The position numbers and the translations under genes are program-made. Below are positions 9,452 to 60,991 of a stretch of 64,000 bases of DNA, piece by piece. Location of the stretch: assembly GCF_003351865.1 (NCBI RefSeq), contig NZ_CP022242.1:558001-622000 (forward strand), given 5' to 3'. Position 1 is the first letter of the stretch; every line of letters starts with the position of its first letter. The notes beneath the pieces were generated by a model that was not told the DNA's origin, ran no database searches, and saw only the letters and a program-made list of their open reading frames with translations. This DNA is from Methanofervidicoccus sp. A16. GTDB lineage: Archaea > AGJL01 > Methanococci > Methanococcales > Methanococcaceae.

Positions 9452-10480
9452 ATGATACGGAAAAAGAGACCAAATACAACATATGCAAAGGCTTGGAAAA
9501 ACAAGGGGGTATCTCTTAGTAATTTAGGCCAATATAAAGAGGCGATAGAATGCTTTGACAAGGCACTGGAGATAGATCCACAATACGCTAATGCATGGAG
9601 GAACAAAGGAATAGTTCTTAGTAAGTTAGGAAGATATAAAGAGGCTTTGGAGTGTTTTGATAAAGCATTGGAGATAGATCCTCAATATAAAAATATATGG
9701 GTAAATAAAGGGATAACACTCAGTAATTTAGGGAGGTATAAAGAAGCACTAGCATGTTTTGATAAGGCACTAAAGATAGATCCAGGGTATAGTACTGCAT
9801 GGATAGCCAAGGGAAATGTCCTTCGTAAGTTAGGGAGAGATAAAGAAGCCCTAAAATGCTTTGATAATGCATTAAAGATGAAACCAAAGTCTAGAAAGAG
9901 TAAGCCAAAAAAACATAAGAAAACGGTAAAACACCATAGCAAGGTATTAAAGACAAATTCAAGATCTGCAAAGATGTGGAAGAACAGAGGAGTTGCCTTT
10001 GGTAATCTAGGTAGATATGTGGAGGCAATAGAGTGTTTTGATAAAGCATTGGAAATTGATCCAAGATATGCGGCTGCGTGGAACTACAAAGGAATAGCCC
10101 TTTATATGTTAAAAAGATACAATGAAGCGATAGAATGTTTTAATAGAGCATTGGAAATAAATCCAAGGTATGCAACTGCATGGAACAACAAAGGATTTGC
10201 TCTCTATATGCTAGGTAGATATAATGAGGCAATAGAATGTTATAAGAGGGCATTAAGGATAAATCCAAGGTATGCAACTGCATGGAATAATATGGGAAAT
10301 GCTCTCTATATGCTAGGAAGGCATGAAGAGGCAATAGAATGCTTCGATAAAGCGTTAAAGATAGATCCAGGATATGTAGACGCCTGGAATAACAAAGGAA
10401 TAGTTCTTAAAAATCTAGGAAGATATGATGAGGCAACGAGGTGCTTTAATAAAGTACAGGAGATACAAAATTCTATATAA
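9452..10480 (+). CDS. TPR-repeat protein with nine repeats
   Basis: A 342-residue protein made almost entirely of 34-residue tetratricopeptide repeats. Four repeats (about 8-143) are followed by a lysine-rich linker (about 148-172, KPKSRKSKPKKHKKTVKHH), then five more to the C terminus. Each repeat keeps the pattern AW-xx-KG-xxL-xxLGRY-xEA-xx-CF-xKAL-x-IDP. No signal peptide or membrane segment is seen, so it is probably a cytoplasmic scaffold. Repeats six to eight are nearly identical at DNA level (about 10060-10370), pointing to recent internal duplication. The start is the ATG at 9452 with GGTGAC upstream. It stands alone, so its partner cannot be inferred. Confidence 0.9.
   Translation: MIRKKRPNTTYAKAWKNKGVSLSNLGQYKEAIECFDKALEIDPQYANAWRNKGIVLSKLGRYKEALECFDKALEIDPQYKNIWVNKGITLSNLGRYKEALACFDKALKIDPGYSTAWIAKGNVLRKLGRDKEALKCFDNALKMKPKSRKSKPKKHKKTVKHHSKVLKTNSRSAKMWKNRGVAFGNLGRYVEAIECFDKALEIDPRYAAAWNYKGIALYMLKRYNEAIECFNRALEINPRYATAWNNKGFALYMLGRYNEAIECYKRALRINPRYATAWNNMGNALYMLGRHEEAIECFDKALKIDPGYVDAWNNKGIVLKNLGRYDEATRCFNKVQEIQNSI
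10060..10370 (+). repeat. Near-identical 102-bp tandem repeats inside the TPR gene
   Basis: The block AATCCAAGGTATGCAACTGC recurs exactly 102 bases apart (about 10161 and 10263). The following GCTCTCTATATGCTAGG is shared too. This reflects recent unit duplication of TPR coding sequence. Confidence 0.8.
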
Positions 10481-26576: not shown

Positions 26577-27662
26577 ATGAAGTTGCACGAGTACGAGGCC
26601 AAGGAGATCTTTAAGGAGTATGGAATACCAGTTCCAAAGGGTTTTATAACATCAGGGAAGGTTGAGAAAATAGACGGTCCAGTTGTAATTAAAGCCCAGG
26701 TTTTAGTGGGAGGTAGAGGTAAGGCTGGAGGTGTATTATTCGCCGATACCGTGGAGGAGGCGAATAGGAAAATTGAGGAGTTACTGAATAAAAGTATAAA
26801 GGGAGAGAAGGTAGAGAAGGTACTTATAGAGGAGAAAATACCTATTAAAAAGGAGTACTACCTAAGTGTAGTTATAGATAGGGTAGAGAAGAAACCCCTT
26901 ATTCTATTCTCCACAGAGGGAGGGGTGGATATAGAGGAGGTTGCCCAGAGAAACCCTGAGAAGATAGTAAGGTACTACGTAGATCCACAGGAGGGGTTTC
27001 TACCCTATATGATCAGGGGGGTGTTGAAGGATCTCGGTTTGCCCTCCCAGGAGATACCTAAGGTTGCAGATGTTATATACAGGGTGTATAAGATATTCAG
27101 GGAGAGGGACGCCACCCTTGTGGAGATAAATCCACTGGTGATTACAGAGGATGGAAAGGTTGTGGCTGTGGATGGGGTGATACATCTAGATGATGACGCC
27201 CACTTTAGACAGGATTACAGTAGATTCGAGGAGTATAGAAAGAGGGAGAACCTACCCTTTGCCTATGTAGAACTGGAGGGGGATATTGGAGTTATAGGGA
27301 ATGGGGCAGGTTTAACCTTGGCAAGTATGGATATAATAAAGGAGTACGGTGGTAATCCTGCATGTTTCCTAGATATTGGAGGGGGAGCCAGTGAGGATAT
27401 TGTTAAAAAGGCCCTTGAGAAGGTCCTTGAGAGGGAGGATATAAGAGGGGTGTTTATAAACATAATGGCGGGAATTACCAGATGTGATGAGGTTGCAAGG
27501 GGGATAGTGGAGGTACTGAAGAAACACCCTGATGTGAAATTTTCAGTTAGGATGATAGGTACCAACGAGGAGGAGGGTAGAAGGATACTTATGGAGAATG
27601 GCATACCTGTTGAGGATTCTATGGAGGAGGCTGCTAAGAAGTTGATAGAGATGTTAAATTAA
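26577..27662 (+). CDS. sucC: Succinyl-CoA synthetase, beta subunit
   Basis: A 361-residue ATP-grasp CoA ligase subunit. HEYEAKEIFKEYGIP at the N terminus, VLVGGRGKAGGV, VEINPLV and the CoA-ligase domain block LDIGGGASED are family signatures. In methanogens it interconverts succinate and succinyl-CoA in the partial citric acid pathway. The usual partner sucD is not next to it or elsewhere in the window, as in other Methanococcales where the two are unlinked. The ATG start at 26577 has GGTGAAGGT. The length is slightly below the bacterial 388 residues, normal for methanogens. Confidence 0.93.
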   Translation: MKLHEYEAKEIFKEYGIPVPKGFITSGKVEKIDGPVVIKAQVLVGGRGKAGGVLFADTVEEANRKIEELLNKSIKGEKVEKVLIEEKIPIKKEYYLSVVIDRVEKKPLILFSTEGGVDIEEVAQRNPEKIVRYYVDPQEGFLPYMIRGVLKDLGLPSQEIPKVADVIYRVYKIFRERDATLVEINPLVITEDGKVVAVDGVIHLDDDAHFRQDYSRFEEYRKRENLPFAYVELEGDIGVIGNGAGLTLASMDIIKEYGGNPACFLDIGGGASEDIVKKALEKVLEREDIRGVFINIMAGITRCDEVARGIVEVLKKHPDVKFSVRMIGTNEEEGRRILMENGIPVEDSMEEAAKKLIEMLN

Positions 27663-27780
27663 AAATTATAATAAATTATAATTATTATTATGGTAATAAA
27701 AACCTTTAAGAGAAATTAATAACAAAATAATAAATTAATAATAAATGATGATAATTATCCATAAATAATAAAAATATAAT

Positions 27781-28280
27781 AACCCTAGTTCCCACCAAAG
27801 TAATAATATAAAAAATAATAATAAAAACCCTAATTCCCATCAAAGCAATAATTTAAATAATAAAAATAATTATAAAAATAGTAAGATAAAAATAAAGAAA
27901 ATGTTTTTAAAATAAAAACTTCTATTAATCTCAGATATAACATTTTAAAAATAAGATTGGAGGAGAATGATCCTCTGGATACCTTCTAATATAGTAGATA
28001 TCAGAATAAGATCTCCTATCTTAACTAAGTATTCAGAAAGATCCTAAGGGTATTCAATATTTTTATATTGGTTATTTTCATTCTTCTTTTAATCACTACT
28101 TGGTAGGAACTAAGGTATTATATTTTTAATCACTATCTTGATGGGAATTGGGGTATTTTAATATTTTCTTAATCTTTTTATTATTTTTATTATTTAAATT
28201 ATTGCTTTGATAGGAATTAAGGTTTTTTATAATTATTCCCATTATTATTTTTTAAACAATTACTTCGATAAAACTAAGGT
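27781..28280. mobile_element. Stack of MITE-like ends around a type 2 core
   Basis: Two left ends (27782, ACCCTAGTTCCCACCAAAG; 27827, ACCCTAATTCCCATCAAAG) precede a type 2 core (about 27905-28075). Four right ends in a row follow, ending near 28116, 28154, 28223 and 28280. This looks like nested or successive insertions. The last end stops at the TATA-like TTTATAAATAT of carB1. The whole region fills the sucC-carB1 gap. Confidence 0.65.
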
Positions 28281-28339
28281 TTATAAATATATTAACCCAT
28301 AAAAATATAATAAACTGTTATTCTTTTAGAGGTGAAATT
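28279..28339 (+). promoter_or_regulatory. Probable carB1 promoter next to a MITE end
   Basis: GGTTTATAAATATATT (about 28278-28293) is a good archaeal TATA box, placed about 50 bases before the TTG start. GAGGTGAAATT is the ribosome binding site. The outermost MITE-like end (CGATAAAACTAAGGT) runs directly into the TATA box. Confidence 0.5.
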
Positions 28340-29779
28340 TTGAAGAGGGAGGATATTGAGCGTGTGATGATATTAGGATCTGGTCCTATTGTAATCGGTC
28401 AGGCTGCAGAGTTTGATTACTCAGGTTCCCAGGCCTGTAAATCCCTAAGGGAGGAGGGAATATACACTATCTTAGTAAATTCCAACCCTGCCTCCATCCA
28501 GACAGATAAAGGTATTGCCGATAAAGTTTATCTGGAACCCTTGGATGTGAATATTGTAGAGAAGATCATAGAGAAGGAGAGGCCCGATGCTATACTTCCA
28601 ACTATGGGGGGGCAAACTGCCTTAAACTTGGCGATGGAACTACACAGTAGAGGTATCTTGGAGAAGTACGACGTGGAACTCCTAGGTTCAAGGATTAAAA
28701 CCATAGAAACCTGTGAAGACAGGGATCTATTTAAGAAGGCGATGGATGAGATAGGAGAACCTACAACTAAATGTTATGCTGTAAATTCCTTCGAGGAGGC
28801 GTTAGATGCAGTATCTAAGTTAGGTTATCCTGTGATTGTAAGGCCTGCCTTTACCTTGGGAGGTACTGGAGGGGGGATAGCCCATAACGAGGAGGAGTTG
28901 AAGAGGATAGTGGAGAGGGGATTAACGTATTCCTTAATAAATCAGGTGTTAATAGACGAGAGTGTCCTTGGATGGAGGGAGTACGAGTACGAGGTTATGA
29001 GGGACAGTAAGGACAACTGTATCGTAGTATGTCACATAGAGAACATAGATCCCATGGGGATACATACGGGAGAGAGTATAGTCACTGCACCATCCCAGAC
29101 ACTCAGCGATGAGATGCACCAGATACTGAGAAACGCCTCTCTGAATGTTATCAGACACCTCTCCATAGAGGGAGGTTGTAATATACAGTTTGCAGTTAAT
29201 GAGGATATGACAGAGTACAGGGTTATAGAGGTTAATCCCAGGGTGAGTAGAAGTTCTGCATTAGCAAGTAAGGCAACAGGGTATCCCATTGCAAAGATAG
29301 CAGCGAAGATAGCGATAGGGATGACACTAGATGAAATTATGAACGATATAACTAAGGAGACACCTGCAGTCTTCGAGCCTACAATAGACTACGTAGTTGT
29401 AAAGATCCCAAGGTGGCCCTTTGACAAGTTTAGAACTGTGGATAAAACTTTGGGAACCTCTATGAAATCCACTGGAGAGGTTATGGCGATAGGTAGAACC
29501 TTCGAGGAGGCACTCCAGAAGGCTATTAGAAGTTTAGATATTGGAAGGAATGGTATTATTGGAGATGGGAAGGAGAAGGGATACAGCAACGAGGAGATAG
29601 AGTATCTACTGAAGAATCCAACAGATGAGAGGATCTTCGTAATTGCAGAGGCATTAGATAGAGGTTGGACAGTCTCAGAGATATCTGAATTAACCTCTAT
29701 ACATCCCTTCTTTATAGAGAAGATTAAGAAGATCGTGGATATGAAGAAGAGGTTGGAATATCTGGCGAATCTGGTATAG
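28340..29779 (+). CDS. carB: Carbamoyl-phosphate synthase large subunit, N-terminal part
   Basis: A 479-residue protein that corresponds to the first ATP-grasp (carboxyphosphate) half of Car[34 protein letters not shown] and [20 protein letters not shown] are family signatures, and the segment 390-479 is the start of the oligomerization domain. The start is TTG 28340, supported by GAGGTGAAATT. The second half is a separate gene 225 bases downstream on the same strand. The split occurs in other Methanococcales and is not a frameshift: each part has its own start signal and there is no shared reading frame across the gap. The product feeds arginine and pyrimidine synthesis. Confidence 0.95.
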
Positions 29780-30004
29780 GAGTTATATTTTCTCTTTATT
29801 AAGATATTATAATAATTATAAATTATAAAAAATTATAAAAAGAAGTATAATAAAAATAAACAAAAAAATAGAAAAAATTTAATGAAATCCACAGTACTTA
29901 AGATATTTCAAGGAATAAGAGTAAAATTTTACTTTCCCAGATTAACCCCCTTATTCAATTTTAATTTAAGGAACTAACTTGATTTTTTAATATTCGGTGA
30001 TAAA

Positions 30005-59587: not shown

Positions 59588-60991
59588 TTATCCCAATGTT
59601 TCCCTAATTGCCTCATAGAGATTTCTACATAGAAACTCTATCTCCTCCTCTGTAATAGTTAAAGGAGGAACTAATATTATGGTGTTAAGGATAGGTCTCA
59701 TATATATACCTCTCTTAAGTAGGTTCTCTGCAACCTTATAGGCCACCTTCTCCCTGTATGGGTAGGGTTCCTTAGTTCTCTTATCTTTCACCAACTCAAT
59801 ACCTACCATAAAACCTCTCTTTCTAACATCTCCCACATGTTCCAACTCCTTCAACCTCTCTAACTCCCTATGGAACATCTCTATCTTCTTATTCACATTC
59901 TTAAAGAAGTTCTTCTCCTCTAATATCTCCAAGGTGGCAAGTGCCGAGGTACATAACAACTGATTTCCTGTATAGGTATGTCCATGGAAGAAATGTCTAA
60001 ACTCTTCAAAATCTCCTAAGAATTGGTTGTATATTTCATCAGTTGTCATGGTAACTGCTAAGGGGAGATACCCTCCAGTTATTCCCTTTCCAATTGTAAT
60101 TATATCTGGTTTAGATATGCTTCTTAACTCCTCCCTCTCGGAATAAAGATATCTACCAAGTCTTCCAAAAGTTGCAACCTCGTCTAATATAAATATTATA
60201 CCCTCCTCCTTGGATCTCCTCGCCAACTCCTCTATGTAGTTATCTGGATATGGGATCATCCCAGCAGAGCCCATCACCCCCCCTTCAAGTATTATACAGA
60301 ACAACTCATCTTTCTTCTCCTCCAAGAGTTTCAACATATCCTCGAGGCAGTCCATACTACACCCCTTCTCCATCCTCTCATCTGTATCCCTGAAGTTGTG
60401 GCCGTATCTACACCTGTAGCAGTAGGGAGGATTTCCATGATATCCCTTAAATAGGAGGGGCTTAAATAAACCGTGGAAGATCTCACTACCTCCTACACTC
60501 ATGGCTCCAAAGGTATCTCCATGGTAGCCCTCCTTCACAGAGAGGAACTTAGTTCTCTTTTTATTTCCTTCAGGATCCTTTAACTGGTAGTACTGAAAGG
60601 CTATCTTAAGGGCGATCTCAACAGCCTCTGAACCATCCTCCGAGTAGAATACTTTAGTTAGATGAAGGGGGGTAATTTCAACAAGTTTCTTCGCCAGGAG
60701 TATAGAGGGAATATTACCACATCCCAAGAGAGTAGAGTGGCATATCTTATCTGCCTGTCTCTTTATCTCCTCAATAATTCTCTTTTCACTATGACCAAAG
60801 AGGTTGCACCATATCGAGGATACTGCATCTAAGTATCTATTCCCGTAGATGTCTATAAGGTAGTTGCCCTCCCCCCTCTCTATTATTAGATTTTTAAAGG
60901 GAGGATCGTACTCCTTCATCTGGGTGTATGGGTGCCATACGTACTTTTTATCCCATTGAGCAAGGTCTTCAGGGGTGTAATTCTCTTTCAT
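59588..60991 (-). CDS. bioA: Adenosylmethionine-8-amino-7-oxononanoate aminotransferase
   Basis: A 467-residue class III PLP aminotransferase of biotin synthesis, making 7,8-diaminononanoate. WHPYTQMKEYDPP and YLDAVSSIWCNLFGHS at the N terminus, KEGYHGDTFGAMSVGG, FILDEVATFGRLG and the PLP-lysine block DIITIGKGITGGYLPLAVT are specific to BioA. The rest of the pathway is not in the window. The insert with cysteines (YCYRCRYGHNFRDTDERMEKGC, about 190-213) is unusual for BioA and may bind metal. ATG start at 60991 with GGTGAAACC. Single-gene unit. Confidence 0.92.
   Translation of the reverse strand: MKENYTPEDLAQWDKKYVWHPYTQMKEYDPPFKNLIIERGEGNYLIDIYGNRYLDAVSSIWCNLFGHSEKRIIEEIKRQADKICHSTLLGCGNIPSILLAKKLVEITPLHLTKVFYSEDGSEAVEIALKIAFQYYQLKDPEGNKKRTKFLSVKEGYHGDTFGAMSVGGSEIFHGLFKPLLFKGYHGNPPYCYRCRYGHNFRDTDERMEKGCSMDCLEDMLKLLEEKKDELFCIILEGGVMGSAGMIPYPDNYIEELARRSKEEGIIFILDEVATFGRLGRYLYSEREELRSISKPDIITIGKGITGGYLPLAVTMTTDEIYNQFLGDFEEFRHFFHGHTYTGNQLLCTSALATLEILEEKNFFKNVNKKIEMFHRELERLKELEHVGDVRKRGFMVGIELVKDKRTKEPYPYREKVAYKVAENLLKRGIYMRPILNTIILVPPLTITEEEIEFLCRNLYEAIRETLG

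Follow-up and report, generated by a model that had tools for sequence, protein, structure and literature searches.

MITECca01, from the Cardinium endosymbiont of Oedothorax gibbosus, is described as a high-copy MITE derived from IS982, with 169 copies that make up 3.5% of the chromosome (PMC9769881). Among archaea, the IS982 elements described include ISPfu3 and ISTli1, with candidates in Methanotorris formicicus and Methanocaldococcus bathoardescens, and the most conserved tip positions of IS982 are given as 5'-AC(N)6T(N)5TT-3' (PMC7335449). The locus described here lies in Methanofervidicoccus sp. A16, the source genome, which is a single contig of 1,504,113 bp (G000; other genomes are likewise cited by label, G004 being the sister genome). 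The window, by which we mean the whole stretch of DNA that was analysed, has a length of 64,000 nucleotides and corresponds to positions 558001-622000 of this genome. Within it, the gap between sucC and carB1 is filled with element ends that carry one tip. Our reading, to which we give a probability of about 0.8, is that the gap holds debris of IS982-related MITEs, of which one end arrived first and a composite element later, and that carB1 is transcribed from a host TATA box.

The stack in the sucC-carB1 gap and its element family

In the ORF listing of the window, the sucC stop falls at 27662 and the TTG start of carB1 at 28340, and no ORF of at least 80 aa lies within 27663-28339. A match to carB1 was found in 21 of the 21 genomes searched, near full-length in 20, and the closest named records of CarB1 are from Methanothermococcus: SZUA-1534 (96%), SCGC AD-155-E23 (95%), and SZUA-1453 (93%). 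An earlier note on this DNA had described two left ends, one type 2 core, and four right ends in the gap, the last of which, reaching 28280, merges with a TATA-like block. Motif matches bear out this layout, with the fourth right end (R4) recognizable only as a degenerate end, and the terminal T of R4 is the first T of TTTATAAATAT. The features, in window positions, are as follows.

27663-28339, unstranded: the sucC-carB1 gap, 677 bp (ORFs and gap sizes)
27663-27781, unstranded: A/T-rich DNA left of the stack, with no recognised end
27782-27826, plus strand: L1, a left end of type 3B in both tip and arm, which reaches L2 after 45 bp (3B arm match 1.0)
27827-27900, plus strand: L2, the left end of the type 2 unit (the left edge of many type 2 alignments falls at 27825-27828)
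27940-28075, plus strand: type 2 core (scored copies genome-wide and an alignment of 29)
28060-28116, minus strand: R1, a right end of type 2B (arm match 0.96)
28117-28154, minus strand: R2, a 3A-like right end of only 38 bp (one tip mismatch, arm match 0.67)
28155-28223, minus strand: R3, a right end with a 1B arm and no recognised partner (one tip mismatch, arm match 0.89)
28236-28280, minus strand: R4, a degenerate, 3B-like right end common to G004 (comparison with G004)
27782-28116, plus strand: proposed single composite unit 3B-2A-core2-2B (likeness to the unit at 1211596-1211985)
28280-28296, plus strand: TTTATAAATATATTAAC, the probable TATA box block, on whose first T R4 ends (identity in G004 and usual distance)
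28329-28335, plus strand: probable ribosome-binding site, GAGGTGA (sequence)
28340-29779, plus strand: carB1, TTG start (ORF listing and genome comparison)

Five of the ends match ACCYTARTTCCCATCAA with at most two mismatches: the left ends at 27782 (one mismatch) and 27827 (none), and the right ends with terminal bases at 28116 (two), 28154 (one), and 28223 (one). Five such ends in 0.68 kb are far beyond chance. By arm scoring, the arm of L2 is labelled 1B-like first (0.89) and 3B second (0.81). The type 2 core has 40 scored copies in the genome including the one at 27940-28075, and the other 39 are 82-88% identical. R4 was missed by a scan that allowed up to five mismatches with an arm filter, and its ungapped score falls only within the top 1.2% of the intergenic background; its orthologue in G004 scores within the top 0.005%, and both carry a derived CGAAG. 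Elsewhere in the window, the 225-bp gap between carB1 and carB2 (29780-30004) also holds an A/T-rich insert, here with no recognised end; in G004 and G005, only ∼20 bp separate the protein matches of carB1 and carB2. At 9472-10465, seven direct repeats of 205 nt are reported in register, mostly 102 bp apart.

Across the 1.504-Mb genome, ACCYTARTTCCCATCAA occurs with at most two mismatches in 474 copies as compared to 6 for the reversed control. Three element types (1, 2, and 3) share this 17-bp tip and differ in their cores and in type-specific arms A and B, giving six kinds of arm behind the tip that are paired 1A/1B, 2A/2B, and 3A/3B around their own cores. In arm typing, 53 of 229 hits were weak and were set aside, and ends that combined a weak arm with more than three mismatches were dropped before units, arm matches, and duplications were counted. 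Adjacent facing pairs were of one type in 39 of 58 cases, and these simple matched units measure 183-366 bp. Exact 8-10-bp duplications flank 18 of the 39, against ∼0.2% in a cross-paired control; none of the other 21 has a duplication that reaches 8 bp. The elements are therefore MITEs, being short and non-coding with facing tips, many copies, and target duplications. An RNA function of the type 2 core was considered and set aside, as the consensus fold of 29 copies reached -2.97 kcal/mol with changes on both sides in 3 of 10 pairs; an Rfam search of the window returned only a tRNA, which does not lie at the core.

The repeats could instead be host intergenic repeats, such as REP/BIME-like sequences or binding arrays, rather than remains of mobile elements. 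Their placement is what such repeats would show, as the ends are almost strictly intergenic, with 2 of 183 inside called genes in 464 kb (called crudely as ORFs of at least 90 aa and at least 27% GC). However, the exact target duplications, the nesting described below, and the fact that IS982 elements in relatives carry these tips too contradict this explanation and leave it hardly credible.

The same tips also delimit elements in two relatives, one of 987 bp in G014 (L162 1352-2338), which occurs twice, and one of 942 bp in G006 (L161 1393-2334), both with duplications of 7-8 bp. The IS982 transposase profile NF033520 matches the N-terminal part in G014 with an E value of 3e-8 and the parts in G006 with 4e-11 and 8e-30; the bit scores of these separate parts (33.5, 43.2, and 104.2) are all below the whole-protein cut-off of 130. 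PF13612 matches the element frames of both genomes at 38-40 bits, over its cut-off. In each element the transposase is split between two frames that overlap, with an equal offset in both elements, which would reflect either programmed frameshifting or parallel decay. The family tip fits the published IS982 pattern at AC and at T9 and departs from it in the TT at positions 15-16, and the tip of the G014 element departs in the same way. The shared tips and the transposase matches point to relatedness of the family to IS982 rather than to present activity.

Within the source genome, a profile search gave no match to PF13612, and no intact transposase was found. The sole IS982 match, from a protein search, is a fragment at 217981-218344 that is interrupted by a stop and a break in frame and ends at the tip ACCCTAGTTCTCATTA; the broken copy and its adjoining family end span L178 about 1375-1757. 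An IS4/IS5-type transposase was also considered as the mobiliser and dropped, as the genome has no PF01609 match. The simplest inference is that the family was mobilised in the past by an IS982 enzyme, now decayed or acting from elsewhere. G007 has 66 end motifs and also 74 hits to a piece of an IS982 transposase, many of them broken, and is a possible source of a working enzyme. End motifs are also frequent in G001 (127), G004 (34), G006 (24), and G002 (21), with controls of 3-8 in each of these five genomes; G005, G008, and G010 have 3, 1, and 4 (controls 0-1). Several of the relatives are drafts, and the element counts there are lower bounds.

Origin of the stacked ends

Units were searched in 536 of the 1,504 kb, of which 464 kb (the window and 20 evenly spread stretches) were chosen regardless of elements and the remainder was picked for holding type 2 elements. 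Among 254 left-right combinations within 900 bp, 53 are flanked by an exact duplication of at least 8 bp where ∼0.5 would be expected. After removal of near-duplicate ends, the 53 stand among 246 combinations and are by label 32 homotypic and 21 heterotypic. A strict typing filter was passed by 11 of the 21 heterotypic units, which have exact duplications of 8-10 bp, and 10 of these 11 contain further ends. The exact target duplications around them show that such mixed-type units, stacked ends included, are transposed whole.

This result bears directly on the view, in line with the repeated insertion of the earlier note, that each stacked end in the gap marks its own nested or tandem insertion, six in all. 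Balanced nesting does occur in this genome, as 2A[1B 1A]2B at 60180-60790, where the outer pair has an exact duplication, and as 1A[2B 2A]1B at 972618-973147. Against six separate insertions stand the mixed-type units, 11 of them typed with confidence, that contain orphan inner ends and are bounded by exact duplications, an example of orphan inner ends being 1A-core-1B-3A at 1456008-1456402, and the same-direction 1B-2B pairs, 8 of 11 of which recur at spacings of 60-62 and 78 bp. Furthermore, the left stack of the site itself, 3B followed after 45 bp by 2A, is found again in a unit flanked by a duplication of its own, TTTATTAT: the unit at 1211596-1211985 consists of 3B, 2A 45 bp on, and then 2B. 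We consider a separate insertion for each end quite improbable.

The carB1 site and the unit at 1211596-1211985 have equal 45-bp left spacing and align at 83% over 27770-28095, and on these grounds 27782-28116 is read as one insertion. Thus, the region is probably a single composite insertion next to the older or truncated ends R2, R3, and R4. Two points count against the composite reading, namely that no exact duplication is left at the site and that the L2 arm is 1B-like rather than canonical 2A. It should be noted that none of the six combinations of the five detected ends has a target duplication of 8 bp or more, and that the two combinations involving R4 were checked by eye only. At least two events are nevertheless needed in the gap, because G004 has the outermost end as well but lacks the inner stack. 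Repeated insertion into the same gap, as the earlier note proposed, thus stands insofar as R4 is older than the inner stack; it fails insofar as the stacked ends are not one insertion each.

A mechanism that would produce such stacks is a transposase that reads mainly the tip. Whichever two ends face each other, of one type or of two, such an enzyme could move them into sites made up of A/T only, where 8-10 bp would be duplicated. The A/T-rich arms may in turn draw insertions into or beside older copies, so that ends pile up and the resulting composites move on as units. At this locus, R4 would be what an older element left directly upstream of the TATA box in the common ancestor of G000 and G004. 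The composite 3B-2A-core2-2B (27782-28116) would have arrived afterwards, in the lineage leading to G000, next to the end remnants R2 and R3.

The carB1 promoter and the distribution of ends

In a carB1 tree of 14 genomes, G000 groups with G004 with support of 100/100, and the order of G008 and G005+G010 around this pair is left without resolution. The sucC-carB1 gap measures 9 bp in G010, 9 bp in G005, 13 bp in G008, 374 bp in G004, 677 bp in G000, and 84 bp in G006; further relatives have 205 bp (G003), 218 bp (G011), 374 bp (G009), and 868 bp (G007). No sucC match was present in the fetched stretch of 9 of 18 relatives (G002, G012, G013, G014, G015, G017, G018, G019, and G020). The whole-gap alignment of G000 and G004 is poor on the right side, and the right 100 bases were aligned alone. 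In G004, R4 is present, TTTATAAATATATTAAC is identical in 17 of 17 bases, and the inner stack is absent, which makes the inner stack younger than R4 and the TATA block alike. The stretch from TTTATAAATATATTAAC to the ribosome-binding site has diverged between the two genomes.

The TTTATA of carB1 begins 60 nt before the TTG. In 189 upstream regions, TTTATA counts peak at 60-69 nt before the start codon (20 against 9.3 expected; Poisson p 0.0015, with bins chosen after looking). The distance signal is modest, because only 43 of the 189 regions carry a TATA word at -68 to -50. A de novo promoter motif search by EM was abandoned after it converged on G-rich or A/T-run words, and only word counts were used.

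Whether the element provided this promoter is the next consideration. The earlier note had held that insertion placed an element end at the carB1 promoter, which agrees with our data in that the ends reach the probable promoter and the R4 tip lies at the TATA box. It had also suggested that the element could have supplied or changed the upstream control region. In one version of this, tip and arm gave a TATA region that now controls the gene. In keeping with this, the tip directly adjoins TTTATAAATAT, G004 has retained the two together, and bacterial IS982 elements are described as forming hybrid promoters (PMC7335449). However, the TATA box lies outside the tip, its first T excepted, and at the usual distance from the start codon. 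Nor do the elements prefer TATA: the raw TATA excess at end flanks (33 of 183 against 6%) is due to A/T content, and insertion targeted to TATA was rejected, as a TATA word occurs in 19 of 86 all-A/T outer flanks (22%) as compared to 22.5% of 3,786 all-A/T 12-mers from the intergenic background. In addition, TTTATAAATTT is found at about -62 in G006, where the gap is 84 bp, and ends are depleted near start codons. Supply of the promoter by the element is accordingly unlikely, and we favour a TATA box that is independent of the element but abuts it.

The depletion near start codons was measured over the same 464 kb with the same crude gene caller. End density is 2.14 per kb in convergent gaps, 1.30 in tandem gaps, and 0.63 in divergent gaps. 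The 25.0 kb that lie within 100 bp before a start codon contain 9 ends (0.36 per kb), and the 72.7 kb lying more than 200 bp before one contain 96 (1.32 per kb). Among gaps of at least 100 bp, the share with an end is 24 of 50 for convergent gaps, 32 of 124 for tandem gaps, and 8 of 48 for divergent gaps (convergent versus divergent, Fisher p 0.001). Promoter-near insertions thus seem to be selected against, and given the low density near starts, an end like R4 at 60 bp from a start codon is unusual. By the crude caller, the intergenic share is 27% in G000, 23% in G004 (80 kb), and 10% in G005 (40 kb).

The stack could also be inert filler, with carB1 read through from sucC as in the relatives with 9-13-bp gaps. 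The gaps of 9, 9, and 13 bp in G010, G005, and G008, with gene order and strand the same, would suit this arrangement; 677 bp of A/T-rich insert would not, and the TATA block is unchanged between G000 and G004 although the bases after it diverged, and it sits at the usual distance. We regard read-through as improbable. A separate carB1 promoter probably existed before the stack did, because the more distant sucC-matched relatives have separate gaps and G006 has its own TATA-like sequence. The close spacing in the three relatives may then be derived, which the tree does not settle.

Under the favoured reading of an independent, abutting TATA box, the host TATA box at 28280-28290 would most likely drive transcription of carB1, with initiation about 25 bp further on. 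In archaeal promoters, the bases just upstream of TATA form the BRE position, which the element tip would occupy here, so that the R4 tip may have supplied the BRE-side bases of the carB1 promoter. A bolder proposal is that a MITE has been built into an archaeal promoter, its tip serving as the BRE half and the first TATA base and allowing expression of carB1 apart from sucC, and that genome-scale mosaics of the three types with interchangeable ends have helped to widen the intergenic spaces. We offer this as a speculation that is rather more likely wrong than right. If true, the pairing of R4 and TATA would have been kept since before two species split, while close relatives still have 9-13 bp.

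Comparison with known systems

The target duplications indicate that several MITE types with one tip move as mixed units, and stacked ends consequently do not count insertions. The sucC-carB1 pair, which has inserted elements in some close relatives and lacks them in others, lends itself to a natural comparison, and the distribution of the ends, which are rare in genes and sparser near starts and in divergent gaps, reveals where an archaeal genome tolerates such a load.

Bacterial IS982 elements that sit directly upstream of a gene and form part of its promoter are exemplified by ISAba825 and IS1187 (PMC7335449). Those cases involve bacterial promoter motifs, whereas carB1 has an archaeal TATA box outside the element and a putative promoter role for the tip. 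The archaeal IS982 elements covered there are ∼0.9 kb long with tips that start with AC, like those of the present family, and ISTli1 needs a frameshift to join its two frames, which seems to hold for the elements of G006 and G014 too. In contrast to the MITEs, these elements carry a transposase, and the duplications listed for ISPfu3 and ISTli1 are 2 bp, as compared to 7-10 bp here (PMC7335449).

IS982-derived, high-copy MITEs are already known. A search of open-licence papers found no report of the present archaeal family or of mixed-type units. As characterized in PMC9769881, MITECca01 resembles the present family in being non-coding, ∼240 bp long, mostly intergenic, and very abundant, with IS982-like tips. 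It differs in being one family that resides beside intact parental IS982 copies, whereas the Methanofervidicoccus elements comprise three types with A and B arms, form mixed-type units with target duplications, have only a broken transposase found beside them in the genome, and inhabit an archaeal host.
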